Assembly: GCF_007971225.1 (NCBI RefSeq) | Contig: NZ_CP042435.1 | Coordinates: 5,087,501 to 5,151,500, forward strand | Source: Panacibacter ginsenosidivorans | GTDB taxonomy: Bacteria; Bacteroidota; Bacteroidia; Chitinophagales; Chitinophagaceae | Reading direction: 5' to 3' | DNA length: 64,000 nt | In this document: positions 6,982 through 63,710 of the stretch, one piece after another | Layout: every line of letters begins with the position of its first letter | Position numbering within the stretch: the stretch's first letter is position 1 | Translations under genes and position numbers: made by a program | The notes under the pieces: model-generated | Seen by the model: the letters and a program-made list of their open reading frames with translations, nothing else | What the model was told of the DNA's origin: nothing | The model's database searches: none

Positions 6982-7009
6982 GTTTTAAAAGTTCAATAAA
7001 GAACAAAGC

Positions 7010-7132
7010 GTATAAGCGTGCGACGCAACGATGTTCAATATTTATTCTAAAGTTTGGCTCACAAAATTTATTTCTTTTATGCCCCCAACAATATTGCTGC
7101 TATGATGCTTCTCTTGCGTCGCACACTTTTGC
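7010..7132. repeat. Two A-type intergenic repeats, tail-to-tail (A+ then A-)
   Basis: A-type core on plus at 7010-7029 (GTATAAGCGTGCGACGCAAC) with its tail running right into tttggctcacaaaat. A-type core on minus at 7113-7132 with its tail running left to gccccc at 7081. The tails meet in the middle, the reverse of the head-to-head pairs. The pair lies inside the putative operon, 10 bp past the stop of the MMPL fusion gene, and may separate or modulate transcription of the downstream four genes. Confidence 0.88.
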
Positions 7133-7142
7133 TGCAACAATT

Positions 7143-10100
7143 CTACTCAGCATGTTGAAGCAAATAAATAATGTTAGAAGTATATTTTGTGTTGTCAACT
7201 TCTTTGCATTGCATGTTGTGCGCTGCTGCTATATCTTTTACAAGCTGACCGGAAAAAAACGTAAGACCCTTTCCGGATGTTTTATTAAAACCGATCAATC
7301 TTGTTGAAAAAAATTCTGTAAGCTTTGTCTTTTTGTGCCGCTCTTTTAAATCTGTATTGCCATCCCTTATCAAAATTGTTCCGCCCGGATTCAGATGCCT
7401 GATACATTTTTCAATCAGCTCTTTTTGTTGTGCAGATTCAAGATAGTGCAACATATCTGCCATTATAATTACGTCGTAATCTCCGGTTTCAAAATTTGTT
7501 GCATCAGCATGCAGGAAATTTATATTTTCGTCTTTGCTGAAGCAATGATTGGCAAGTGTTATTTTTTCATCATCATAATCTATGCCCGTTATAATTCTTT
7601 GTGGCGCTGCAAAGTGAAGCATGTAACTCATGAAACCATAACCACAACCGATATCCAGCATTTTGCCGCTTCCGGGGATCAGGTTATGAATCGGCTGATA
7701 ATATTTTTCCAGTTTTGTCTTTATTCTCATGTACCACTCAAGAACAGGACCTTTATAAAGATAATTGTATTTGAGTTGCTCTTTGTAGTAAGCAGGTTGC
7801 TGAATATTGTTGCTAATTTCCGCAAAACGTTGTTTGAAATTTTTACTTATTGTTTTTGCTTTCGTAGTATAATCATCACCAAATTTTGTGGCGCCTGGTT
7901 TTATTCTTTCTTCAATGGTTAATGTTATGGTTCCATCTTTTAAAAGAAAATCATGTTTCGTCATAGTGTAGCCAGTACCATGAATAATGACAGGCAAAAT
8001 GTCGAGATTTAATTTTTCTGCAAGATAGAATGCTCCTTTATGAAAACGTTTCATCGCTCCATCAACTGTTCTTGTGCCTTCAGGAAAGATTACTATCGAA
8101 TAACCATTCTTAACACGATCTTCTAATAATTCAATGCTGTTTTCAATACCATCTGCGACCGGGTAATAATCAGCCATTCTTATAACCCATCCAAAAACCG
8201 GCGATTTCCAGACCCATTGATTGGTTAAAAGAATAAGCTTTGGATAAAGCATTGTCGTTACCAGAATATCAAGGAAGGATTGATGATTGCATATAATAAC
8301 CGCAGGCGTTTTAAAATTTTCTTCATGTGGATTTACTATTCTCTTTGTAAGGTTACTCATTATATACACTAATGACCACGTGTATTTTGAGAGCAGTGTA
8401 TGGTAGATAAGTTTACCTCGCTCTTTGCCAAACGGAAAGATAATCACAAGAAAAAAACCTGCAATGGTTAATAATATGCTGCCAATAACAAAGTATGCAA
8501 AAGAAAAAAATGATTTGAACAAACCAAGTGCTGTCCATGGGAATTTGTTTTTCTTAACACGGTTTGTAATAAGAAAATTGAACAAGAACGGGATCATTAC
8601 CTGCGCAATCAATACAACACAAAGAATGCCTGTAATGGAAATAAATGCAATTGATTTTAATGCAGGATGTTTGGCAAAGATCAATACACCAAGACCTGCA
8701 ACTGTTGTAATTGCCGAAAGGAAAATAGATGATTTAAAAGACGATAAATTTTTCTTTCCTGTTTTATATTCCTGTAATAAACCGTCCATGATGAACAAGC
8801 TGTAATCATCACCCAAGCCAAATATTAATGCAGAGATGATGATGTTTATGATATTGAACTGAATGTTGAATAAAGACATGATGCCAAGGATCCATATCCA
8901 GGTAATGAACATTGGAATGAATGAAACAAGTGCCAACTCAATTCTTCCGTAAGTGATTAACAGAACGATGAACACCAATATAGAAGACATATATGCAATG
9001 CTGGTAAAATCAGTATTGATGATTTCAGCCATACGGTCTGCCAGGTATTGTTTATCGAGAACAGTAACAGTATTATTATGTGCAAAACTTTTATAAACAG
9101 CAGGCTTATTTTTATCTGAAACTTTTATGAGTGTTACAACATTTACACCCGTGGGTGTTTCTGAAATATAATCATCAAGAAACTTTTTCCTTACATCCGT
9201 CATTTCTGTTAAAGAGATAGGTTCGTATTTTGTATTTAATAAGTTGTTGAAATTATTAAATGCAGATGAAGAGAATTTTAGTGGTGCACCTTCTTTTTTC
9301 AATGTTGCCATCAGGGCTTGCTTTTTTTCTACAGTCCAGTAATTATTCCAGCGGTTAATTCTTTCCCGCTGCAAAGAGTCAGAGAGGATAAGTGATGAGA
9401 CCCCTGAATATTTAGTAACAATATTCTGCTGTTTCAATGAATCAATTGTTGAAGAAAGATGTTCGCTGTTTTTTAGAGCTTCATCCAAAGTGTTTCCTTC
9501 TGAGACTGCATACACAGATTTTAGAGCAGCCTGGTTTAATGCATTTAGGTTTGATTCAGATTTTTTCAAATTATCTGACATGTAGTTCATGTGCATCATG
9601 TCTGAATCAAAGCCAACATTGCTTACATAGAATGAGAAGAATATAGTAAGTGCAATTATAGCTGCAATCAATATTTTATTGTAATGAGGATTGTATGCTG
9701 CAAGTTTATCTATAAATGAAAGATCATGTGCGCCATGATTATCTTCTTCTTTAGTATGAATGAAATGCGGTAAATAGATCAGACTACAGAGTGCTGCACC
9801 AATAAGACTGAATGCAGCAAACAAACCCAGATCTTTCAATAATTCGGATTGCACAAACTCAAGACATAGAAACCCACCAATGGTAGTAAAACTTCCAATC
9901 GTTAAAGGAAAGGAAAGGTCTTCAATTGTTTTTTCGCTGCTATGTGTATGACGGTAATGGTTAAATACATGCAAAGAGTAATTAATAGCAATACCAAGTA
10001 TTACGGAGCCTGTTCCCAATGCAATAACAGAAATCGTTCCTTTAATAAAATAAATGGCAGCAAGTGAAAATAAAGCCCCAAAGACAACTGGAATTAAAAT

Positions 10101-13185: not shown

Positions 13186-13218
13186 ACGCATTTTGAAAAG
13201 CACATCTTTTGTACAAAC

Positions 13219-13238
13219 GTACAAGAGTGCGACGCAAC
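13219..13238 (+). repeat. A-type intergenic repeat core
   Basis: Perfect GTACAAGAGTGCGACGCAAC. The tail (aaagcctaatact) and the box-like ctctggttc lead into an A-run that ends at the glyA stop codon, so the element occupies the whole 3' flank of glyA. Confidence 0.93.
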
Positions 13239-13279
13239 GAAAGCCTAATACTTATTCAACACTCTGGTTCAAAAAATTC

Positions 13280-14560
13280 CTAACCCATCTCAGGATACAA
13301 TTCAAACTGGCTCATAAATTCATTTACCTGTTTCCTAACAGTTGAAATAACATTTGCATCGTCTGCATTCATCAATACATTGTCGAGAGAATTTACCACG
13401 AACTGCATGTGCTCTGCTTTCATACCACGTGTGGTGATCGCCGGAACACCAACGCGGATACCGCTTGTAACGAATGCACTCTTGTCATCAAAAGGCACCA
13501 TGTTCTTGTTAGCAGTAATATCTGCCTGCACCAAAACCTGCTCTGCTTTTTTACCGCTGATGTTTTTATTACGAAGATCTATCAACAATAAATGATTGTC
13601 TGTACCGTCGCTGATGATGTTGTAACCTTTGTCGCGAAAAGCTTTTGCCATTGCCTGCGCATTTTCAACAACCTGTTTTGCATATACAGTAAAATCATCA
13701 GAAAGAATTTCACCAAATGCAATTGCTTTTGCAGCAATTACGTGTTCAAGCGGTCCACCCTGGATACCCGGAAAAACAGCAAGATCGATCAGGCTGCTCA
13801 TCATGCGAATGTTGCCCTTAGGATCTTTATGCCCCCACGGGTTTTCAAAATCTTTGCGGATCATAATGATGCCGCCACGTGGTCCACGCAAAGTTTTATG
13901 TGTAGTTGAAGTAACAATATGACAATGATCAAAAGGATCAGCCAGCAAACCTTTAGCGATCAAACCCGCCGGATGTGCAATATCAGCCATCACCAAAGCG
14001 CCAACTTCATCGGCCACTTTGCGAATGCGCTCATAATCCCAATCCCGGCTATAGGCACTGGCGCCACAAATGATCAGTTTTGGTTTTACTTCTCTTGCTT
14101 TTGCTTCGAGCATTTCATAATCAACGCGACCGGTTTCTTTTACCACACCATAAAAATGTGGCTTATATAACTTACCACTGTAGTTAACAGCCGAGCCATG
14201 AGTAAGGTGTCCGCCCATGCTAAGGTCAAGTCCAAGAATATCATCACCGGGTTGCAAACAAGCAAGCGCTACTGCAGCGTTTGCCTGCGCACCGCTATGT
14301 GGCTGCACGTTAGCATATTCAAGATTGAAGATTTGTTTTAAACGGTCAATCGCAAGATTTTCTGTCTGGTCAACGATTTCGCAACCACCATAATAACGGC
14401 GGCCAGGATAGCCTTCAGCGTACTTATTCGTCATCACATTCCCCATCGCCTGCATCACCTGCAAACTTGTAAAATTCTCCGATGCAATCAGTTCAATACC
14501 ATGGCGCTGGCGTTCCAGTTCTTTGCGTATGAGGTCGAAAACCAAATTATCTCTTTGCAT
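13280..14560 (-). CDS. glyA: Serine hydroxymethyltransferase
   Basis: 426 residues, normal for bacterial SHMT. It interconverts serine plus tetrahydrofolate with glycine plus 5,10-methylene-THF, using PLP, in the cytoplasm. Family hallmarks are ELIASENF at the N-terminus, [29 protein letters not shown], and the PLP-binding [14 protein letters not shown] with Lys222. It is monocistronic: repeat copies flank both ends (13219 and 14682), and a clear TATCTTTG promoter box lies 20 bp before the start codon. Confidence 0.97.
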
Positions 14561-14587: not shown

Positions 14588-14681
14588 GCGGGTAAACGTT
14601 TGCCGTTTTTAGTTAATCGTTTTTCATTGCTGTTATGTTGAAAAGTTGTGATACCAGCAGCAATTTTTCATAGCATCAGCC

Positions 14682-14701
14682 GTTGCGTCGCAATCCTTTC
14701 A
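14682..14701 (-). repeat. C-type (diverged) intergenic repeat core
   Basis: GTTGCGTCGCAATCCTTTCA followed by TCGTTCAG. It keeps the GTTGCGTCGCA half of the core but ends in CTTCATCGTT-like sequence instead of CTTGTAC, as do the copies at 50780, 51112 and 58712. It lies in the 376-bp divergent spacer between glyA and pckA, which otherwise shows only the two promoters. Confidence 0.8.
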
Positions 14702-14911
14702 TCGTTCAGATCATTGTTGCATCTTCAATACTAATTTTTAGCCGGATTTGATATTTAAAGTATTCGTAGCTATCCAATAGCATGGCAAAAATTATAGACC
14801 ACTGTTAATTACAGTCATAGAAATTTCGACACTATCTAAATAAACTTGTATTCAACAAGACCTTTTCTAAGTTTCGGTAATAAAAACTTACTATCGTTAG
14901 TTTATAAATTA

Positions 14912-16664: not shown

Positions 16665-16743
16665 TTTAAACACTATGTACTGCTTGCTATGAGGAAATGG
16701 AGGTCAATCTTTATGTTATTAAATGCACCGTTAAGTATAAGAC

Positions 16744-16763
16744 GTACAAGCGTGCGACGCAAC
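16744..16763 (+). repeat. A-type intergenic repeat core
   Basis: GTACAAGCGTGCGACGCAAC, followed 23 bp later by GCCCGGCTC and an A-run that ends at the stop codon of the minus-strand cytochrome c peroxidase gene. Confidence 0.92.
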
Positions 16764-16803
16764 ATGGTCATATAGCAGCACTGCTGCCCGGCTCAAAAAA
16801 ATA

Positions 16804-18156: not shown

Positions 18157-18354
18157 CGGGTTGAGTTTTCATAAAAAGAATGATTAGTATTTAGGGTAAG
18201 AATACTAACCAGGTACGGAAACACAAAAGTAGGCGAAATAGTAAATGTGCGATTCGGAAATAATGTGTTTAAGCATCTATTAATTACAAAAATGATGATG
18301 TAGTGATGAGGTATTTTTTTATAAACCCAACGATAATATTTCATGGCATCGCTT

Positions 18355-18374
18355 GTTGCGTCGCACTCTTCAGC
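18355..18374 (-). repeat. A-type intergenic repeat core with GGCATCGC tail
   Basis: GTTGCGTCGCACTCTTCAGC preceded by GGCATCGCTT, so an A core carries the tail usually seen on B copies. It lies in the 374-bp spacer 18157-18530. The rest of that spacer is AT-rich and shows no gene. Confidence 0.85.
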
Positions 18375-18530
18375 GTTAAAGTCTGTATGGTACATTACAC
18401 GGATATAACTAAACAAAACCTACTTGAGAAGAATAAGAAAAAACTTTTTAAGTCTTTTATAATAATGCCTGTTGTTATAAAAAAGGAAAGAATAGATGGC
18501 TGGTTTTTTATAAAGATTTGTTAGACAATG

Positions 18531-20453: not shown

Positions 20454-20548
20454 AGAAAATTCTTCCGTTCGAATGTACAACGCATTTATAATACTATTTA
20501 TGATAAATAGTTTTTGTTTGTGAGCTACAACAATACTATTAAGCTTTG

Positions 20549-20667
20549 GTTGTGTCACTCACTTGTACATTCAGAACAGTTATCAGCATTCAGAAAGTAA
20601 AGTGTATTGCTGAAGCCTGACTGCTGGTGGCTGATACCTGTGTTGCAGTACAAGAGTGCGACGCAAC
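20549..20667. repeat. Composite intergenic repeat, head-to-head B(-)/A(+) pair
   Basis: B core on minus at 20549-20568 and perfect A core on plus at 20648-20667 followed by the AGGCGATGCC tail. The spacer holds a nested stem, TATCAGC against GCTGATA with TTCAG/CTGAA inside. Located between the divergent subtilase and a small secreted protein gene. Confidence 0.92.
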
Positions 20668-20832
20668 AGGCGATGCCCAAAGCATTAATTGATGGGCCCA
20701 AAAAATTGTTGTTTTCAAAGGTTTAATGAGGAATGAACATTTATATTTTTAATAGGGAATGTTTCTGTTTTTAATAACAATCGTTGGCACCTGCTTTGGC
20801 ATATAGTAATCAAACAACAAAAAATAAAAATT

Positions 20833-22231: not shown

Positions 22232-22260
22232 CAGGCTTTATTGCTGCATAATGTTATGCA

Positions 22261-22280
22261 GTACAAGAGTGCGACGCAAG
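22261..22280 (+). repeat. A-type intergenic repeat core
   Basis: GTACAAGAGTGCGACGCAAG with tail AAAGCTTAATAG and GCCTGG box 24 bp from the core. It lies between convergent genes (phosphoesterase and S10 peptidase). Confidence 0.92.
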
Positions 22281-22320
22281 TAAAGCTTAATAGTTCTACT
22301 GCAGCCTGGTTATTGAAATA

Positions 22321-23885: not shown

Positions 23886-23966
23886 AAACAGATTTTTATT
23901 AAGTATACAAGATAAGGAGAATAAAATTTTTTATGCACCCAACTTTAGAATTAATATTAAGCTTTT

Positions 23967-23986
23967 GTTGCGTCGCACTCTTGTAC
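23967..23986 (-). repeat. A-type intergenic repeat core
   Basis: Perfect minus-strand core, with tail ATTAAGCTTTT on its left and a CACCCAAC box 23 bp away. It lies between the divergent S10 peptidase and NIPSNAP genes, so not every copy is at a gene 3' end. Confidence 0.92.
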
Positions 23987-24133
23987 TGTTTGTTTCTTTA
24001 TTCAGCATCAGCGGGCATACTATTTGAAAATTAATTTGATTTTTTATTGCGGGGTTCCGCAGAATGTTTGCAGTATATAATTTACTTGTACTAATTTCGG
24101 TGCGTCTTATAAATTTATATAACGATCATAAGT

Positions 24134-26905: not shown

Positions 26906-27007
26906 GTGATTGTTCGTGTCTGAATAATTATTCGCAGAAAGGTCAGAAAAATCACAGTGAAGTATAAAATTTTTTTGTAACAAGCTGTAGGGCATCTGGC
27001 ATCGCTG

Positions 27008-27147
27008 GTTGTATCACTCACTTCAGGGTTCGAAGCTGTATTGTACTGTAAAAGTGAAAGATGAAAAGTCAACCCTGTACTTTCACTTTTACTTTTGACT
27101 TTTCACCTGCTGCTACATGCAATTGCAGCACAAGAGTGCGACGCAAC
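27008..27147. repeat. Composite intergenic repeat, head-to-head B(-)/A(+) pair
   Basis: B core (one change, GTTGTATCACTCACTTCAGG) on minus at 27008-27027 with a GGCATCGCTG tail. A core on plus at 27128-27147 with ACTTAATGC tail and GCCCGG box 24 bp on. The spacer is a nested inverted repeat of GTGAAA/AAAAGTCAA phrases against TTGACTTTTCAC. Confidence 0.92.
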
Positions 27148-27251
27148 GAAAACTTAATGCATATTCTATTGCCCGGCTCCAAATCATTTCTTATTTCGCT
27201 AACACCTGTTATTGCAAAATGAAATAACTTCGCCTCCCGAAAATTAGTTGT

Positions 27252-28913: not shown

Positions 28914-28956
28914 AATAATTTTTGTTTGCAGGCTTTTGTTTTGCATGGCATCGGCG

Positions 28957-28976
28957 GTTGTGTCACTCACTTGTGC
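28957..28976 (-). repeat. B-type intergenic repeat core, left flank of an orphan gene
   Basis: GTTGTGTCACTCACTTGTGC preceded by GGCATCGGCG. It points away from the B copy at 29910, so the two B arms bracket a single gene in head-to-head orientation with a spacer of about 930 bp. Confidence 0.88.
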
Positions 28977-29008
28977 GTGCTGTTCTCTTTGCATCATTCT
29001 TGTTTATT

Positions 29009-29831: not shown

Positions 29832-29909
29832 GTGGTCATTTAAGCTTGCCGCTAACTCAAAAATATACAAAACTTTTTCACCGGCAACTGCCCAATTACA
29901 ACCCCAACC

Positions 29910-29929
29910 GCACAAGTGAGTGACACCAC
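29910..29929 (+). repeat. B-type intergenic repeat core, right flank of an orphan gene
   Basis: GCACAAGTGAGTGACACCAC followed by AGCCGATGCC. It is the partner of the inverted copy at 28957. Confidence 0.85.
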
Positions 29930-29974
29930 AGCCGATGCCATGAAAAACATTGGCCGGTTCACCTGAATAAAATA

Positions 29975-31406: not shown

Positions 31407-31565
31407 GATTTGTCAATAATCACAGCTAAATTTTGTATTAGCAAAATAAATCTATAAAAAAATATTGAGAATTAATACAAATTATGTTGCATTTGAAAAT
31501 CGGCAACTTTCGTTTTTTTACTACTGCCATGTTCCGCTTCAATAAAGCTGCTTATAGCATTAACT

Positions 31566-31585
31566 GTACAAGAGTGCGACGCAAC
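31566..31585 (+). repeat. A-type intergenic repeat core with GGTGATGCC tail
   Basis: Perfect GTACAAGAGTGCGACGCAAC, with an AGGTGATGCC tail more typical of B copies, and a gggtacataaaaaa end that runs into the terminator of the DUF5689 gene. Confidence 0.92.
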
Positions 31586-31616
31586 AGGTGATGCCGTTTT
31601 ATTCGGCAGTTGGGTA

Positions 31617-31657
31617 CATAAAAAATGAAAACTCACTAAATTTTAGTGAAGTTTTCA
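31617..31657 (-). terminator. Terminator of the DUF5689 lipoprotein gene
   Basis: On the minus strand GAAAACTTCACTAAA pairs with TTTAGTGAGTTTTC (one bulge), followed by ATTTTTTATG, about 20 bp past the stop. Confidence 0.7.
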
Positions 31658-33637: not shown

Positions 33638-33710
33638 AAAATGAATTTGCATTGAATAATTTTTTTAAAGGTTAATTTGAATATCGGCTTTATGTCTCTG
33701 GGCATCGCCG

Positions 33711-33781
33711 GTTGTGTCACTCACTTATACGTTCGGAACATTGCTTAACAAAGAACAAAACCCTGAAGAGTCCGACGCAAG
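33711..33781. repeat. Composite intergenic repeat, head-to-head B(-)/A(+) pair
   Basis: B core on minus at 33711-33730 with a perfect GGCATCGCCG tail. A degenerate A core (CTGAAGAGTCCGACGCAAG) ends at 33781, followed by the AAGGCTTTATAG tail. Spacer only about 30 bp. It lies between the TonB-receptor and the DUF5689 gene on the same strand. Confidence 0.85.
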
Positions 33782-33859
33782 TAAGGCTTTATAGCAGTAA
33801 TGCAGTCTTGCTCCCAAAAAATCCAACCTGCCTTTTTTATTTCCTGAATTTGAATAACA

Positions 33860-37579: not shown

Positions 37580-37621
37580 TAGTTTTTTTGATCCCAACTA
37601 TTAATTCAATGTGCATCGTTC

Positions 37622-37740
37622 CTTGCGTCGCACTCTTGTGCTATTGAATACAAATGAACAGATAGCAATAGAAGACTCTTTGCCTATTGCCTCATTGCCT
37701 TGTTGCCTTTTCTTCCGAACGTACAAGTGAGTGACACAAC
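37622..37740. repeat. Composite intergenic repeat, head-to-head A(-)/B(+) pair
   Basis: A core on minus at 37622-37641 and perfect B core on plus at 37721-37740 with tail AGTTCAATAG and GCCTGT box. The spacer has a nested GCAATAG / CTATTGC stem and a CTATTGCCT phrase shared with the spacer of the pair at 53114. Confidence 0.93.
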
Positions 37741-37860
37741 GAAGTTCAATAGCATTACCAAAGCCTGTACCCAAATCAATATCTCACTATCAAGATTTCC
37801 CGATATCCTGTTTAGGATGAAATCCCTATCTTCGCAGCCTCAAAAAAAGCTCTTTCCTGA

Positions 37861-39798: not shown

Positions 39799-39828
39799 AA
39801 GGAAACTAAAATGGTTTCCTTTTTTTAT
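39799..39828 (+). terminator. Rho-independent terminator of yajC
   Basis: AAGGAAAC / GTTTCCTT with a seven-base loop and a long T-run, 30 bp past the stop. Confidence 0.88.
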
Positions 39829-39860
39829 GAGCCAAACTTTTGTATTGTGTGGCGTCACCT

Positions 39861-39952
39861 GTTGCGTCGCACTCGTGTGCATTTGATCTTTACGCAAAAA
39901 ATAATTTTTAAATGCTCACTATATTTCTGAACGTACAAGTGAGTGACACAAC
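39861..39952. repeat. Composite intergenic repeat, head-to-head A(-)/B(+) pair
   Basis: A core on minus at 39861-39880 (GTTGCGTCGCACTCGTGTGC) and perfect B core on plus at 39933-39952 with tail CGGCGCTTAATAG, a mosaic of both tail types. Located between convergent genes yajC and the FGE-like lipoprotein. Confidence 0.92.
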
Positions 39953-40008
39953 CGGCGCTTAATAGTAGTACAAAAGCTGGTTACAAGGACTTTCTTGAAT
40001 TGTTTCAA

Positions 40009-41202: not shown

Positions 41203-41354
41203 CTTTAATGGATAAAATGTTTGCTCAACGTTTTATGTAAGTTATATAAGCTTTGTGTAAATAAAAGTAAGAAGCCGTTAAAATATTGCACTCCTGATAA
41301 TAAATCTTTTGATTTCTGTAGGGAGCCGATCTTTAATACTGCTATCAGGCTTCT

Positions 41355-41374
41355 GTTGCGTCGCACTCTTTTGC
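41355..41374 (-). repeat. A-type intergenic repeat core
   Basis: GTTGCGTCGCACTCTTTTGC with the left tail CTATCAGGCTTCT. It lies in the 259-bp spacer between the FGE-like gene and the desaturase, 30 bp from a terminator. Confidence 0.9.
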
Positions 41375-41405
41375 AATTATAATATTATGGGTCTATTTAG
41401 AAAAA

Positions 41406-44092: not shown

Positions 44093-44248
44093 TCAAGTAT
44101 AAATATAACAATAGTCCATCTTATTAATGACATCCCGGCCGTTTAGTAACCTTTGCAGGATGTTGTTTTATGAATATTTAACAATCATTCAAATAAAATT
44201 AATGAAGAACTATACTTGGGGCCCGGCTATATACTGCTATTAAACTTA

Positions 44249-44395
44249 GTTGCGTCGTACTCTTGTACAATTTGTACTTGACGCTGCAGTAAAAACATTA
44301 TGATTTGAATGAAATAATAAATGCTAAATACATAAAAATTACAACTTCTGTATAAATAAGATGAAAGATATAAAGGTGCTGAAGTGTGCGACGCA
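44249..44395. repeat. Composite intergenic repeat, head-to-head A(-)/A(+) pair
   Basis: A core with one change on minus at 44249-44268 (GCGTCGTAC), preceded by TACTGCTATTAAACTTA and GCCCGG at 44221-44226. Degenerate A core on plus near 44377-44395 with TTGATTAATAG tail and GCCCGG at 44419-44424. This is the only tight head-to-head pair with two A arms. It fills most of the 525-bp gap 44093-44617. Confidence 0.87.
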
Positions 44396-47880: not shown

Positions 47881-47923
47881 ATACTGTTTATGTACTTAGC
47901 TATAGCACTACTATTAAACTTCC

Positions 47924-47943
47924 GTTGCGTCACTCACTTCAAC
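47924..47943 (-). repeat. Hybrid A/B intergenic repeat core
   Basis: GTTGCGTCACTCACTTCAAC: the left half is A-like (GTTGCGTC), the right half B-like (CACTCACTT). The tail TACTATTAAACTTCC is of the A kind. It shows that A and B are variants of one family. It lies in the 454-bp gap 47828-48281 between convergent genes. Confidence 0.85.
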
Positions 47944-47979
47944 TTTCTGAAAAGCATGAGCAATAAAATAATAAAAATA

Positions 47980-49508: not shown

Positions 49509-49580
49509 AACCGCAAAGACTTAAAGGCGCAGAGAAATAATAAAATTAAAAACTCTCAGCGTCTCTGCGTCTCCGCGGTT
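49509..49580. repeat. Long imperfect palindrome of 'cgcaaagac...gtctctgcg' type between pgk and gapA
   Basis: AACCGCAAAGACTTAAAGG and GCGCAGAGA on the left pair with TCTCTGCGTCTCCGCGGTT and CTCTCAGCG on the right, around an A/T-rich loop. Similar phrases occur in unrelated bacterial genomes as intergenic hairpins. It lies directly before a B-type repeat, in the position occupied by spacer stem-loops in the composite pairs. Confidence 0.7.
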
Positions 49581-49602
49581 TATGTTGAATAAAGATCTGA
49601 AC

Positions 49603-49622
49603 CTTCAAGTGAGTGACACAAC
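49603..49622 (+). repeat. B-type intergenic repeat core, single
   Basis: CTTCAAGTGAGTGACACAAC with AGGCGATGCC tail. The expected A partner on the left is absent; the pgk start lies there. A perfect GCACAAC-T-GTTGTGC palindrome (49637-49651) follows, 9 bp before the gapA stop, and may aid termination of gapA. Confidence 0.87.
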
Positions 49623-49659
49623 AGGCGATGCCATAAGCACAACTGTTGTGCAACAAAAA

Positions 49660-50673
49660 TTACTTGCTTATTAAACCTGCAAAATAATGTACTGTGCGTA
49701 CTAACTGGCTTACATAGCTCATTTCATTATCGTACCAGCTAACTGTGCGTACTAATTGAACATCGCCAACTATTTGCACACGTGTTTGTGTTGCATCATA
49801 CAAAGAACCATAGGTGATGCCGATAACATCTGTGCTTACAATTTCATCTGTGGTATAACCAAAGCTTTCATTTGCTGCTGCTTTCATTGCTGCATTTACT
49901 TCTTCAACGGTTGTTTTCTTACCAAGAACCGCAGTCAATTCAGTTAAAGAGCCTGTGATAGTTGGAACACGCTGAGCAGAACCATCCAGTTTGCCTTTCA
50001 ATGAAGGCAGTACAAGACCAATTGCTTTTGCAGCCCCGGTGCTGTTTGGTACAATGTTCTGTGCTGCTGCACGTGCACGGCGAAGATCACCTTTGGGATG
50101 CGGCGCATCCTGTGTATTCTGATCGTTTGTGTAAGCGTGAATAGTAGTCATTAAACCATTAACAATACCAAATGTATCTTCAAGCACTTTGGCCATTGGT
50201 GCAAGACAATTGGTAGTGCAGGATGCACAACTGATCACGGTTTCGCTGCCATCAAGAATACTATGGTTTACATTGAATACAATTGTTTTCAGATCTCCTG
50301 TAGCAGGTGCAGAAATAACAACGCGTTTTGCGCCTGCAGTAAGATGTAATTCTGCTTTTGCTTTATCTGTGAAGAAACCTGTACATTCCAAAACAACATC
50401 TACATCATGCTGGCCCCATGGAATTTCAGCAGGATTTTTTTGTGCATATATTTTTACTTCGTTACCCTTTACAATGATTGAATTTTCTGTAGCAGAAACC
50501 TCTTCATTAAAGCGGCCCTGTGCGCTATCATATTTTAAAAGATGTGCTAATACTTTTGGACTAGTAAGATCATTTATCGCAACAACATCAATCCCCTCCA
50601 TGTTAAATATCTGTCTGTATACCAAACGGCCGATTCTTCCGAATCCGTTGATTGCAACTTTTACTGTGCTCAT
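49660..50673 (-). CDS. gapA: Glyceraldehyde-3-phosphate dehydrogenase (type I)
   Basis: 337 residues. NAD-binding [14 protein letters not shown] is at the N-terminus, and the catalytic Cys152 is in [12 protein letters not shown], followed by [13 protein letters not shown] and the C-terminal [20 protein letters not shown]. It oxidises glyceraldehyde-3-phosphate to 1,3-bisphosphoglycerate, the step before pgk, which follows on the same strand. The 265 bp upstream hold a C-type repeat and the tRNA-Glu promoter on the other strand. Confidence 0.97.
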
Positions 50674-50779
50674 GTTTTATTGTTTATATTTTATTAAAAG
50701 CGATGCGAATTTACAAGTATTGAAGTGAAAAAACATGATATTTTTTGTTTACAGACGTTAGTACAAGCATTAAGCTTCT

Positions 50780-50799
50780 GTTGCGTCGCATTACGTTCA
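50780..50799 (-). repeat. C-type intergenic repeat core, left of tRNA-Glu
   Basis: GTTGCGTCGCATTACGTTCA followed by TCGTTCTG, with tail ATTAAGCTTCT on the left. With the inverted C-type copy at 51112 it brackets the tRNA-Glu gene. Confidence 0.82.
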
Positions 50800-50884
50800 T
50801 CGTTCTGTAATCCTTATGAGCATTGAGTTGCAGCTCGCATGTTATTTTTGTGATTGATAAAATACTTATAAGGCTTAAAAAAAT

Positions 50885-52997: not shown

Positions 52998-53113
52998 ACT
53001 TTAAATATTGTTATTCAATTGGTCAAATTTTTTGCCAAGGATACTTAAGTGGAAATATTGGCAGGCGATAAATGAATTCTGGGGCCGGCTTTTGGGTTTT
53101 TATGGCATCGCCG

Positions 53114-53211
53114 GTTGTGTCACTCACTTGTGCGTTCGGAACTTTAATGAACAATTTCACTGCCTATTGCCTCCTTGCCTTTGTTCATGGATTACAAAAG
53201 TGCGACGCAAC
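53114..53211. repeat. Composite intergenic repeat, head-to-head B(-)/A(+) pair
   Basis: B core on minus at 53114-53133 with GGCATCGCCG tail and GTGCGTTCGGAAC continuation. A core on plus at 53192-53211 with GATGTCCAA tail. The spacer has a nested ATGAACAA / TTGTTCAT stem and a CTATTGCCT phrase also found at 37681. It lies between divergent grpE and the RlmI-like gene, and forms a false N-terminal extension of the latter. Confidence 0.93.
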
Positions 53212-53289
53212 GATGTCCAATTTCTGCACTTTAGTTGGGTTCCTAAATATCAAAATCAAATACTGCAACCCGCCAATTATCTTTGCCAC

Positions 53290-55101: not shown

Positions 55102-55215
55102 GCACTTATTTAAAATGCAATGATAAGAAAACAGTAAGATGATTGTGTAAGTAACCTATCAGTAAAATGGAATTAGTTTTTATGAGCCAGGCTGATGAAT
55201 ATATATTAATCTTTT

Positions 55216-55308
55216 GTTGCGTCGCACTCTTGTACGTTCTGCTCTTCTATCGACAGTCAATCGTTAACTGTCGACCATTTTTCCAAACGCTCAAGTGAGT
55301 GACACAAC
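55216..55308. repeat. Composite intergenic repeat, head-to-head A(-)/B(+) pair
   Basis: Perfect A core on minus at 55216-55235 and B core on plus at 55289-55308 with CGGCGATGCC tail and GCCCGG box 23 bp on. The spacer has a perfect nested stem TCGACAGT / ACTGTCGA (55250-55274). It lies between rpsT and the LysE gene. Confidence 0.94.
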
Positions 55309-55344
55309 CGGCGATGCCAAAAGAACAGAAGCCCGGAACAAAAT

Positions 55345-55376
55345 AAAAAAGCCGTGTTATGACTAACACAGCTTTA
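55345..55376 (-). terminator. Rho-independent terminator of rpsT
   Basis: AAAGC-C-GTGTT / AACAC-A-GCTTT with a six-base loop and an A-run on the left, i.e. a T-run on the minus strand, about 26 bp past the rpsT stop. Confidence 0.75.
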
Positions 55377-55823: not shown

Positions 55824-58574
55824 ATGAAAGACTTTTCGTATATAACCAGCTCACATCCCCAATTCGTTGAAAGCTTATACCAGGATTTTAGTAAAAACCC
55901 CGAAAGTGTTGATCCGGAATTCCGGAAATTCTTCGAAGGTTTTGATTTTGCTGTAAATAACGGCTCAAAAAACGGTAATGGGGCTGCGACGCCTGCAGCA
56001 GTTAGCACTGGCGAAGCAATTGACTGGATGCGTGAAATTCGTGTTTATCGTATTATTCTTGGTTACAGGAACAAGGGGCATTTAATTGCTAAAACAAATC
56101 CTATTCGTGAAAGAAAAGATCGAGGCGCTAACCTTGATCTTGGTTTTTTTGGGTTTACGGAAGCTGATCTTGATAAAGAATTCCAGGCAGGTCAATTAAT
56201 TGGTCTTGGCAAAACCAAGCTTAGAAATATTATTGATTATTTACAAAAAGCTTATGCAACACATGTTGGTGTTGAATTTAAATATATAAGTGAGCAGGAC
56301 AGGGTAGATTGGTTATACAATGAAATGGAAAGAAAATTCAATGACCCTTTGCCTCTTGAAAAAAGAAAACGCATACTGGAAAAATTGAACCAGGGTGTAA
56401 TGTTTGAGAAATTTTTACATACCAAATATATCGGCCAGAAAAGATTTTCATTGGAAGGAGGGGAGACCACCATTGCGGCTTTAGATGCAATCATTAATAC
56501 TGCGGCAGATAATGACGTACAGGAAGTGGTGATTGGCATGGCGCATAGAGGAAGATTAAATGTGCTCGCTAATATCATGGGTAAAACCTATGAACAAATA
56601 TTCAGTGAATTTGAAGGTACTGCTAAACTTGACCAGACAATGGGTAGCGGCGATGTTAAATACCACATGGGGTATGGAAGTGAGGTTACTACACCCGGTA
56701 ATAAAACTGTCCACCTGAAACTAATGCCAAACCCTTCACATCTTGAAGCAGTGGATCCGGTGGTGGTAGGTTTTTCAAGGGCAAAGGCAGATGTGATGTA
56801 TGAAAGTGAATACGACAAAATTCTTCCAATACTTATACATGGAGATGCTTCAATTGCTGGTCAGGGTGTAGTATATGAAATATTGCAAATGAGCGATCTG
56901 AAAGGTTATTATACCGGAGGTACTATTCATTTTGTAATTAATAACCAGATTGGCTTTACTACAGACTTCGACGATGCCCGGAGCTCTGATTACTGTACTT
57001 CGCTTGCTGGTGCTATTCAAGCACCCGTGCTACATGTAAATGGTGACGATGCTGAAGCAGTAGTAAAATGTGTTGAGATCGCAACGCGTTACCGTCAGCA
57101 GTTCAATGCTGATATTTTTGTAGATATGGTTTGTTATCGTCGTCATGGTCATAATGAAGGTGATGATCCAAAGTTTACACAGCCGCATATGTACGCATTG
57201 ATTGAGAAACACCAAAACCCGCGTGAGCTATACACAAACTACCTTTTGGAAAAAGGTGAAGCTGATGCAAAAGATCTTGCCAAAGAAATGGAGAAGAAAT
57301 TCTGGGGAGATCTGCAAGAACGATTAGATGAAGTAAAACAGAATCCGCTTCCTTATAATTATCAACAACCGGAGTTGTGGTGGAAGAGTTTGCGCAAAGC
57401 AACATCTGATGATTTTGTGAAGTCACCAACAACTGCAATTTCCAATTCAGATTTCAAAAAAATATTTGACGCCTTAATGTCATGGCCTGAAGATTTTACG
57501 CCACTTAAAAAAGTGGAGAAAATTATTCAGGATAAGGTCAAGCTTTTTCAGGCTGAAAATAAAGTTGATTGGGCAACCGGCGAATTAATGGCTTATGCAA
57601 GTATTCTGCTTGATGGCAATGATGTGCGCATGAGCGGGCAGGATGTTAAACGTGGTACATTCTCTCATCGTCATGCAGTATTAAGAGATGAAAATACTGA
57701 TAAAGAATATAGCCGTTTAAGCAGGCTTGATGGAGCAAAAGGAAAATTCAGAATTTATAATTCCTTACTTAGTGAGTATGGTGTATTAGGTTTTGAATAT
57801 GGTTATGCTATGGCAAATCCACACGCTTTGGTTCTTTGGGAAGCTCAGTTTGGTGATTTTAGTAACGGCGCACAAACCATGATTGATCAATTTATAAGTG
57901 CTGGTGAGCAAAAATGGAATCGTATGAATGGCGTTACTATGTTGCTGCCTCATGGTTATGAAGGTCAGGGCCCTGAACATAGCAGCGCAAGAATGGAGCG
58001 TTACTTACAGGCTTGTGCCGAATTGAACATGGTAATTACAAATATTACTACCGCTGCAAATTTATTCCACGCTTTGAGAAGACAGGTTGCCTGGCCGTTC
58101 AGAAAACCATTGATCAATTTTTCGCCAAAAGCAAATCTTCGTCACCCGGGAAGTTATAGTCATCTCTCAGAGTTTATAAGTGGTGGTTTTAAAGAAGTGA
58201 TAGATGATGAAAATGTAACTGATGTTGCACAGATCAAAAAAGTATTGTTCTGTTCCGGTAAATTATATTTCGATCTTGCTGAAAGAAAACAAAAAGACAA
58301 TCGCAATGATGTAGCGATCATTCGTCTCGAACAGATATACCCATTGCCTTTTAAACAACTTGATGATCTTTATAAAAAATACAATAAAGCCGTTTGGTTT
58401 TGGGTACAGGAAGAGCCTTTGAACATGGGCGCCGCATCATTTTTACAAATGAATTTAAAGAGTATCAATTACGGCGTAATCAGCCGTAACCCAAGCGCGG
58501 CAACAGCTACAGGCTATGCTAAAGTTCATAAACAGGAGCAGGAAGAAATTATACAAACAGCTTTCAGCATTTAA
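55824..58574 (+). CDS. sucA: 2-oxoglutarate dehydrogenase E1 component
   Basis: 916 residues, the normal E1o length. The N-terminal motif (FVESLYQDFSKNPESVDPEFRKFFEGF) contacts E2. The ThDP region includes GMAHRGRLNVLANIMGK, HGDASIAGQGVVYE and FVINNQIGFTTDFDDARSSDYCTSLA, and the C-terminal half has FVDMVCYRRHGHNEGDDP and LLPHGYEGQGPEHSSARMERYLQ. It decarboxylates 2-oxoglutarate in the TCA cycle. The E2 gene (sucB), often next to it, is absent here: a terminator and two repeat copies follow. Confidence 0.97.
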   Translation: MKDFSYITSSHPQFVESLYQDFSKNPESVDPEFRKFFEGFDFAVNNGSKNGNGAATPAAVSTGEAIDWMREIRVYRIILGYRNKGHLIAKTNPIRERKDRGANLDLGFFGFTEADLDKEFQAGQLIGLGKTKLRNIIDYLQKAYATHVGVEFKYISEQDRVDWLYNEMERKFNDPLPLEKRKRILEKLNQGVMFEKFLHTKYIGQKRFSLEGGETTIAALDAIINTAADNDVQEVVIGMAHRGRLNVLANIMGKTYEQIFSEFEGTAKLDQTMGSGDVKYHMGYGSEVTTPGNKTVHLKLMPNPSHLEAVDPVVVGFSRAKADVMYESEYDKILPILIHGDASIAGQGVVYEILQMSDLKGYYTGGTIHFVINNQIGFTTDFDDARSSDYCTSLAGAIQAPVLHVNGDDAEAVVKCVEIATRYRQQFNADIFVDMVCYRRHGHNEGDDPKFTQPHMYALIEKHQNPRELYTNYLLEKGEADAKDLAKEMEKKFWGDLQERLDEVKQNPLPYNYQQPELWWKSLRKATSDDFVKSPTTAISNSDFKKIFDALMSWPEDFTPLKKVEKIIQDKVKLFQAENKVDWATGELMAYASILLDGNDVRMSGQDVKRGTFSHRHAVLRDENTDKEYSRLSRLDGAKGKFRIYNSLLSEYGVLGFEYGYAMANPHALVLWEAQFGDFSNGAQTMIDQFISAGEQKWNRMNGVTMLLPHGYEGQGPEHSSARMERYLQACAELNMVITNITTAANLFHALRRQVAWPFRKPLINFSPKANLRHPGSYSHLSEFISGGFKEVIDDENVTDVAQIKKVLFCSGKLYFDLAERKQKDNRNDVAIIRLEQIYPLPFKQLDDLYKKYNKAVWFWVQEEPLNMGAASFLQMNLKSINYGVISRNPSAATATGYAKVHKQEQEEIIQTAFSI

Positions 58575-58594
58575 TTGCTGCATTATTTGTCGTA

Positions 58595-58731
58595 GTACAA
58601 GAGTGCGACGCAACATAAGATTAATTGAAATACAAAAGCCCGGATCATAAAAATGTTCCGGGCTTTTCTTATTTATTTGAATACAAGCTTTTGCAACTCC
58701 GGTTAAGCATCGTTGCGTCGCAATCACTTCA
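58595..58731. repeat. A(+) and C(-) repeats, tail-to-tail, enclosing the sucA terminator
   Basis: Perfect A core on plus at 58595-58614 with GCCCGG at 58638-58643, and a C-type core on minus at 58712-58731. The tails face each other. The GCCCGG box of the first copy is the left arm of the sucA terminator. Confidence 0.9.
58634..58667 (+). terminator. Rho-independent terminator of sucA, formed partly by a repeat tail
   Basis: AAAAGCCCGG / CCGGGCTTTT around an AT-rich 14-base loop, 60 bp past the sucA stop. The left arm is the box of the A-type repeat at 58595. Confidence 0.8.
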
Positions 58732-58763
58732 TCGTTTTACTAAACATCAACCAAATTGATTAT

Positions 58764-63570: not shown

Positions 63571-63609
63571 ATTTTATGTAATTAGCTGTATTGCTTCTAT
63601 GAAGCTTTA

Positions 63610-63629
63610 CTTGCGTCGCACTCTTGTAC
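63610..63629 (-). repeat. A-type intergenic repeat core
   Basis: CTTGCGTCGCACTCTTGTAC with the left tail CTATGAAGCTTTA. It lies between rpoB and the degenerate minus-strand frame; 63520-63710 hold only this copy and the terminator. Confidence 0.92.
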
Positions 63630-63710
63630 TGTAATTCTTTATTGAGCTTTTAACAAGAATATTAAATGGCTACTCTTAGCTTACGTAAGGATTAATTTGT
63701 TAGTGTTGTT

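Follow-up and report, generated by a model that had tools for sequence, protein, structure and literature searches.

Known dispersed repeats

REP/BIME and REPIN sequences of Pseudomonas and enterobacteria occur in hundreds to thousands of extragenic copies, either singly or as inverted pairs with variable spacers. MITEs are miniature inverted-repeat elements, non-coding and bounded by facing end sequences. DNA uptake sequences of Neisseria and Pasteurellaceae have a short invariant core that is present in thousands of copies on both strands, often as facing intergenic pairs, and each family has its own dialect. The definition of REPs, in the available part of its source, includes a GTAG or CGTC tag at one end (PMC3733652). 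Intergenic repeats made of 7-nt direct units are represented by the TAACTGA heptamers of Beggiatoaceae, which, according to the available part of the source, are found in five Bacteroidetes as well (PMC4679880). Here we describe a dispersed repeat of Panacibacter ginsenosidivorans (Chitinophagaceae) that resembles each of these systems in part. It is undescribed in the titles and abstract openings of the literature on REP/RAYT, Chitinophagaceae repeats, heptamers, Bacteroidetes REP/MITE and uptake sequences, which took in few subscription papers. Literature matches to short core strings came only from zebrafish, plants and a snail, and judging by the titles were taken as chance.

Genome sample and repeat scan

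The window, a stretch of 64,000 nucleotides (NZ_CP042435.1, positions 5,087,501-5,151,500), lies within the 5.53-Mb single-contig genome of P. ginsenosidivorans, of which we read 1.24 Mb (22%). About 12 kb is present at both contig ends, with 100% identity at each of the six sites examined, and represents an untrimmed circular overlap; removal of the duplicate copy leaves 1.23 Mb (1.2285 Mb). This copy (block b3 beyond 428,500) holds two pairs and five arms. It was removed for the element alignments, arm consensus, target-site, folding, half-to-half and stem-length analyses, and also for the single-arm periodicity, gap-occupancy, partner-core and monomer-fold analyses, the class counts of 7- and 8-nt stretches and the spacing pair counts. 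It is still included in the arm scan, core classes, 153-pair count, ORF overlap, covariation, arm-versus-arm identity, word-family list, orthologous-gap comparisons, strand counts and gap-evenness counts. In the lag-7 periodicity analysis, identical spacers were removed instead. Genes were long ORFs called by a simple script, so the borders of gaps are approximate.

A position-matrix scan identified 645 arms in 1.24 Mb and none in the reversed control. Among them, 153 facing pairs have their arms at most 200 nt apart (two of these are contig-end duplicates). The spacers of 151 pairs were divided into short (n=52), mid (n=22) and long (n=73), and four spacers of more than 160 nt, which show no excess of folding energy, were kept apart from the long class. 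At the gathering score of Rfam 15 the sole match in the window is a tRNA, and identity of the repeat with a known structured RNA was thereby rejected.

An 82-bp arm with a nearly invariant core

The repeat unit is an arm of about 82 bp, extending from a T-run at -40 to about +41 and conserved alike in single and paired arms. Its core of 16 nt is nearly invariant and comes in two forms, A (TTGCGTCGCACTCTTG) and B (TTGTGTCACTCACTTG), which differ at positions 3, 7, 9 and 11. Of these, 3 and 7 form a covarying local dyad, and short local dyads of this kind account for the strongest pairing-type covariation. In the arm consensus, CGTC sits inside the A core, not at the arm end. A third form, A2, is similar to TTGCGTCGCAATCNCTTCATCGTT and has a similar outer arm; the 1.24-Mb sample contains 41 A2 cores, and those of the window are at 14681-14706, 50779-50804 and 58711-58736.

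The whole genome contains 1,944 exact cores, against none for the reversed pattern. Scaling by the 640 scan matches found for 461 exact cores in 1.2285 Mb gives an estimate of about 2,700 arms per genome. Arms are mostly extragenic, 560 of the 645 scan matches lying outside the script-called ORFs. The monomer forms no hairpin: 195 single arms (82 nt) have a mean fold z of +0.11, compared with -0.70 for control DNA. Conservation of the core was also assessed without any core-based search, by locating partner arms through the 62- or 69-nt spacing alone, a procedure in which each pair may count from both sides. Of 79 such cores, 76 have at most two mismatches in 16, and the classes with three to six mismatches are near background, with no decayed tail. 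The flanks of random arms agree at about 35-39%. An unfolded monomer with an exactly kept core points to recognition as double-stranded DNA.

Among 60 Chitinophagaceae genomes the number of exact cores is highest in P. ginsenosidivorans itself (1,944), followed by a genome of the same genus (1,364) and then by genomes with 362, 165 and 129. At least one exact core is present in 31 of the 60, P. ginsenosidivorans included, and 29 have none; the 23 genomes sampled from the order outside this family have no exact core. Among the matches listed, the A core occurs in exact form at least once in Foetidibacter luteolus, Segetibacter koreensis, Limnovirga soli, Niastella caeni and Flavisolibacter nicotianae.

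Within the genome, about three in four codirectional or convergent gaps of 120-400 nt hold an arm. For gaps of 120-200 nt the share with an arm is 45/62 (++), 50/65 (--), 43/54 (convergent) and 15/41 (divergent), and for gaps of 200-400 nt it is 54/69, 54/68, 24/30 and 33/58, respectively. All four gene arrangements are thus occupied, the divergent one less often, and a gene-orientation rule for arms was rejected.

Pairing of arms and homology of whole elements

Arms occur singly or in inward-facing pairs that usually combine one A and one B. By type, the 153 pairs are A/B (114), AA (37) and BB (2), where our arithmetic from arm frequencies gives about 72 A/B pairs expected. Two spacing classes stand out, with core starts 62 nt (20 pairs) and 69 nt (20 pairs) apart; other pairs are spaced more widely and then often have a filler of 7-nt periodic words. 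Within a pair, the two arms resemble each other less than random arms do (core z -7.1), so that a hairpin formed arm to arm was discarded. High identity at +42 to +60 across all pairs arises because the arms overlap in short pairs, and it vanishes for pairs of more than 100 nt (z 1.35).

Comparison of 151 elements yielded 1,628 similar element pairs among unlinked copies at E<1e-10. Alignments longer than 120 nt end preferentially at -40 and between +36 and +40, and to a lesser degree at the core edge. Whole pairs are therefore homologous between unlinked loci and their ends are mostly sharp, most long alignments stopping at the T-runs. The best full-length unlinked copies share 82% identity over 217 bp, and partial stretches reach 91-94% over about 100 bp. 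One pair of copies lying 3.4 kb apart agrees at 90% over 199 bp. Nothing in the 22% of the genome read suggests that distant loci carry fresh copies. A search of 151 pairs for target-site duplications gave none (largest z 3.6 over many offsets), which could reflect decay, because the copies look old. At about 249000-295000 of the contig, a run of similar intergenic elements was observed, several of them about 2.6 kb apart, as if belonging to a tandem gene family.

Elements in the window

The paired element at 55177-55347 consists, according to the arm scan, of an A arm on the plus strand (core 55217-55235), a spacer (55236-55288) and a B arm on the minus strand (core 55289-55307). Its ends were placed at the -40 T-run, at which long alignments between unlinked copies mostly terminate. 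The first-pass annotation had described this and several other pairs as conserved arms around nested stem-loops, each with unrelated sequence but always self-complementary. We compared the spacers of the eight arm pairs of the window with 300 dinucleotide shuffles each. All palindromes that had been named are present, and three pairs have stems beyond chance. In the 55217 pair, TCGACAGT/ACTGTCGA at 55250-55274 forms an 8-bp stem with a 9-nt loop (shuffle P=0.003; DNA fold z -4.4). The element at 53075-53250, with a B arm on the plus strand (core 53115) and an A arm on the minus strand (core 53210), encloses ATGAACAA/TTGTTCAT at 53147-53188, likewise with an 8-bp stem (P=0.003); this stem-loop alone folds at z -1.7. 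The strongest case is the element at 26969-27186, composed of a B-like arm (+, core 27009) and an A arm (-, core 27146) with words of the GTGAAAA/GTCAAAA type between them. The GTGAAA/AAAAGTCAA words noted earlier do occur there, and the actual stem is one of 13 bp at 27048-27092, which none of the 300 shuffles reaches (fold z -4.8).

Two further pairs have stems of 7 bp that are within chance. One is the element at 37583-37779 (A arm +, 37623; B arm -, 37739), with words of the GGCAA type on the B side and GCAATAG/CTATTGC at 37665-37690 (P=0.10); the other is that at 20510-20706 (B arm +, 20550; A arm -, 20666), with CAGC-type words and TATCAGC/GCTGATA within 20581-20636 (P=0.15). The phrase CTATTGCCT is, as reported, common to the spacers of the 37623 and 53115 pairs. 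The remaining three pairs have nothing comparable (P 0.70 to 0.92): the longest perfect stem is 6 bp at 1925-2134 (A+, 1965; B-, 2094), an element filling the gap between convergent ORFs that end at 1911 and 2136, 4 bp in the short element of spacing class 69 at 33672-33820 (B+, 33712; A-, 33780) and 5 bp at 39822-39991 (A+, 39862; B-, 39951). "Always self-complementary" is thus wrong for the window, where three of eight pairs exceed chance, two have chance-level stems of 7 bp and three have none.

The other arms are arranged differently. Two lie back to back at 6987-7155 (minus-strand core 7028, plus-strand core 7114), an outward arrangement that is rarer. No partner within 200 nt was found by the scan for the A arms at 13196-13277 (-), which adjoins the stop of the ORF at 13280-14560, 16721-16802 (-), 18316-18397 (+), 22238-22319 (-), 23928-24009 (+), 31543-31624 (-) and 41316-41397 (+), for a weak arm at 44210-44291 (+; score 20.9) and for the B arm at 49580-49661 (-). 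The B arm at 28918-28999 (+) has a facing B arm at 29928, beyond an ORF; the scan places a B arm at 29887-29968 (-). It also detected an arm with the mixed core TTGCGTCACTCACTTC at 47885-47966 (+). At the A arm 58572-58653 (-) the outer GCCCGG can, by eye, pair with a downstream CCGGGC to give a terminator-like hairpin. By eye, too, an A2-like core follows this hairpin (58595-58680), and the sister species has a similar layout at its orthologous site. The A arm at 63571-63652 (+) comes directly after a terminator-like hairpin, and in both species a B arm faces it, past the end of the window.

Self-complementarity of spacers in the genome sample

Perfect stems of at least 8 bp are present in 26 of 73 long spacers (0.36, compared with 0.18 in control intergenic DNA and 0.09 in shuffles) and in 7 of 22 mid spacers (0.32, compared with 0.11 and 0.02), and in none of the 52 short ones. 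Folding of all spacers against controls, which the first-pass annotation had proposed, revealed an excess for long spacers, although a weak one (P=0.0035; mean z -1.28, n=73, versus -0.68 for 73 control pieces), and no significant one for short (P=0.15) or mid (P=0.07) spacers. The share with a fold z below -2 is about equal in long spacers (0.25) and control DNA (0.22).

The two halves of a spacer give a clearer picture. In long spacers the mean half-to-half match is 8.63 in inverted and 5.42 in direct orientation (P=1e-11), the control values being 6.09 and 6.21. Scores of at least 9 are reached by 45% of the 73 long spacers, compared with 4% of the control, and 55% of long spacers have no such match. 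The inverted orientation is also favoured over the direct one in short spacers (P=7e-8), and mid spacers show no excess (P=0.18). Nested self-complementarity is real for a substantial minority of spacers, not for all.

Seven-nucleotide arrays between facing arms

Inspection of long spacers by eye revealed families of 7-nt words, such as GTGAAAA/GTCAAAA, CAGCTAT/CAGGTAT, GAGCTAT/GAGCTTC, AGGCAAC/AGGCAAA and GTGAATC/GTCAATC. Self-match of spacers at lag 7 is 0.446, compared with 0.293 in shuffles (z 16.4), and extends to lags 14 (z 13.1) and 21 (z 4.2). Lag 8 shows a small excess (z 3.5), and control intergenic DNA has no excess at lag 7. In the arms of long pairs the 7-nt period starts at +42 and continues inwards (z 16). 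It is absent beside single arms, both in 195 strict cases and in 100 whose partner is weak. Pair interiors, 10.9 kb in all, contain 13 strong 7-nt stretches and other intergenic DNA (141.8 kb) contains 7, a density about 24 times higher within pairs; for 8-nt periodic stretches the counts are 5 and 8, respectively.

The nested palindromes derive from these 7-nt periodic arrays between facing arms. Words tend, by eye, to read the same way from each arm, and the two sides are therefore often rough reverse complements, with the look of a stem-loop. The suggestion that a second type of element lies between the arms was thus close, its centre being a 7-nt periodic array that is dense in pairs. That each spacer carries unrelated sequence is only partly so, since many long spacers, judged by eye, share a limited set of word families between loci. 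Some elements have a different word family beside each arm, and their stem score is then low; such two-family fillers argue against simple duplication, which does not explain them. The step from 62 to 69 nt in spacing looks, by eye, like one added unit (TGAGCAA TGAACAA) and, being a step of 7, is consistent with unit duplication. Spacings of 75-160 show no modulo-7 peak, and a modulo-7 rule for long spacings was dropped.

Among 198 sampled genomes of the class, one word family also occurs, as tandem arrays, in 15 besides P. ginsenosidivorans, and all 15 belong to other families. The five such loci read show no arm by eye in the stretch covered. In several of those genomes the reversed pattern is about as frequent, since reversal alters this word only slightly.

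Sister species and orthologous gaps

In 1.6 Mb of a sister species of the same genus we found 539 arms and 52 pairs (A/B 38, AA 5, BB 9). Its 39 long spacers have neither a lag-7 signal (z -0.1) nor an excess of inverted over direct matches (P=0.31). Since the filler is absent from single arms and from the long spacers of the sister species, the repeat element does not generally need a folded centre, and the nested palindromes belong to the P. ginsenosidivorans lineage. Selection for a folded centre, which the first-pass annotation had put forward, is unsupported as a rule, given single arms devoid of the periodic module, short pairs devoid of 8-bp stems, the folding results and a sister species devoid of the excess, and we rejected it as such.

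Per-strand arm presence in 65 orthologous gaps was as follows: in both species 27, in P. ginsenosidivorans only 16, in the sister species only 3 and in neither 84. Where each species has one arm in the gap, orientation is kept in 16 of 16 cases; in one gap that holds two arms in both species, their order is reversed between the two. Of the 27 shared arms, 16 are of the same A/B type, hardly above the chance expectation of about 14 (our arithmetic). Orthologous flanks are hardly more alike than those of random arms (z 1.0 to 1.8), a comparison near saturation. That place and orientation are kept and A/B type is not is the least explained of our results. The poor match in type and flank at shared places could reflect repeated insertion or conversion at favoured places, not descent.

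In other genera, 48 pairs were seen in 119 loci, and some of their spacers look, by eye, self-complementary with other sequences. Three loci have, again by eye, inverted repeats of the GTCATTGCGAGG...CGCAATGACG type between the arms, a different type of palindrome at the same position.

Origin and maintenance of the repeat

We lean, with moderate confidence, towards the explanation that this is a dispersed intergenic repeat of Chitinophagaceae whose core is held by a putative factor that binds DNA, and whose paired arms enclose heptad filler in this lineage. Under such a scenario, pairs would once have spread as units by means of a presumed enzyme. The core would be bound by a protein and would be, or once have been, the end that a putative mobiliser recognises; what keeps it today would be a DNA-binding protein, either that former mobiliser or a factor of the host, acting on double-stranded DNA. 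The filler would be a passenger, its 7-nt units probably accumulating between facing arms by local duplication, and the stem a by-product in this lineage rather than a working part. We count against this explanation that BB pairs are nearly absent here (2/153) and yet make up 9 of 52 in the sister species, that pair interiors contain 8-nt periodic stretches as well, and that neither a target-site duplication nor a mobiliser came to light.

An unlikely alternative is that REPIN-like units were moved as single-stranded DNA by a RAYT, the stem-loop being the hairpin recognised by the transposase or at the replication fork. High copy number, extragenic location and inverted pairs with variable spacers are all as in REPINs. 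A arms are distributed over strands as 55 +/79 - in the first block, 61 +/69 - in the middle and 100 +/69 - in the last, a bias in the two end blocks of 179 versus 124 (P=0.002) that B arms there lean against, and of 76 codirectional A/B pairs, 50 have the A arm upstream (P=0.008). However, the bias omits the middle block, is confined to -- genes in the first block and ++ genes in the last, and depends on fork directions guessed from mixed GC skew. In relatives, an arm lies immediately beside the RAYT in 4 of 20 loci, from genomes with 362, 49, 49 and 10 exact cores; the case with 362 says little, because arms are common there. Against this, P. ginsenosidivorans, with the most exact cores of the 60 genomes, has no RAYT (Y1_Tnp) match, and across the 60 the presence of a RAYT does not follow core number, which led us to reject RAYT as the present-day mobiliser. 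In addition, the surroundings of the RAYT genes contain their own, different short palindromes (by eye), no clear arm is present within 700 nt of two RAYTs among the 119 arm-bearing loci, single arms do not form a hairpin and the stem is absent in the sister species. The gene may nevertheless have been lost from the P. ginsenosidivorans genome after a period of activity. At one of the four RAYT loci with an adjacent arm, the 5' stretch read starts with the heptad-like words GTGAATC/GTGAAAC.

As a speculation that we consider probably wrong as a whole, the roughly 2,700 near-invariant cores, common in mid-sized gaps and often kept in place and orientation between species, may be binding sites of a putative protein through which Chitinophagaceae organise the chromosome or the borders of transcription units, A/B pairing giving each border a direction and a dedicated process working in 7-nt steps writing the arrays between facing arms. 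Arms that are a host signal, either a DNA uptake sequence or a chromosome-organising site, and never were a mobile element seem to us quite unlikely. A core nearly invariant on a diverged background, present on both strands and common to genera of the family, would agree with this, as would the orthologous positions and orientations kept and the somewhat even spacing of arms (CV 0.54 versus 0.67 for gaps of at least 100 nt). But homology extends over 82 bp and over whole pairs of about 217 bp with sharp ends, which is unexpected from point mutation, and the 29 family genomes devoid of an exact core likewise speak against it. Selection of the folded centre itself, as RNA or DNA structure with sequence free, is very unlikely: different word families do yield the same shape and the halves of long and short spacers match better inverted, but most long spacers lack such a match, mid pairs have no excess, the energy excess over control is small, and short pairs with 8-bp stems, sister-species pairs with a folded centre and single arms with one are all wanting.

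Whatever holds the core, one short sequence fills most mid-sized intergenic gaps of this genome, its core conserved on a fast-changing background. Since core number in the family spans from none to nearly two thousand exact copies, the question of what binds the core becomes testable. Annotators and those searching for RNAs in the family should be warned that paired copies imitate structured RNAs. The heptad arrays exemplify nested stem-loops that seem to form with no selection acting on the stem.

Comparison with known systems

Like REP/BIME and REPIN sequences, the repeat described here is high-copy and extragenic, and occurs singly or in inverted pairs with variable spacers. Unlike them, it has a monomer of about 82 bp that is unfolded and conserved in mid-unit, its pairs are mostly A/B and the genome has no RAYT. 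Of the properties of REPs, high extragenic copy number is thus found, while the hairpin unit of 20-40 bp and the tag at the end are not, and with the RAYT missing as well we do not file the repeat as REP or REPIN. The pairs resemble MITEs in being about 140-230 bp long and non-coding, with facing ends that are sharp at unlinked loci, but differ from them in that the arms fall short of perfect inverted repeats, no duplication of the target was detected and a search for Y1_Tnp gave no cognate transposase. With DNA uptake sequences the repeat shares the short invariant core, thousands of copies on both strands, facing pairs and a family dialect, whereas its long homologous flanks (-40 to +41) and whole-element homology set it apart. 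Finally, the filler, like the TAACTGA repeats, is made of 7-nt direct units in intergenic DNA, but its words are imperfect, belong to several families and form facing arrays between two arms.
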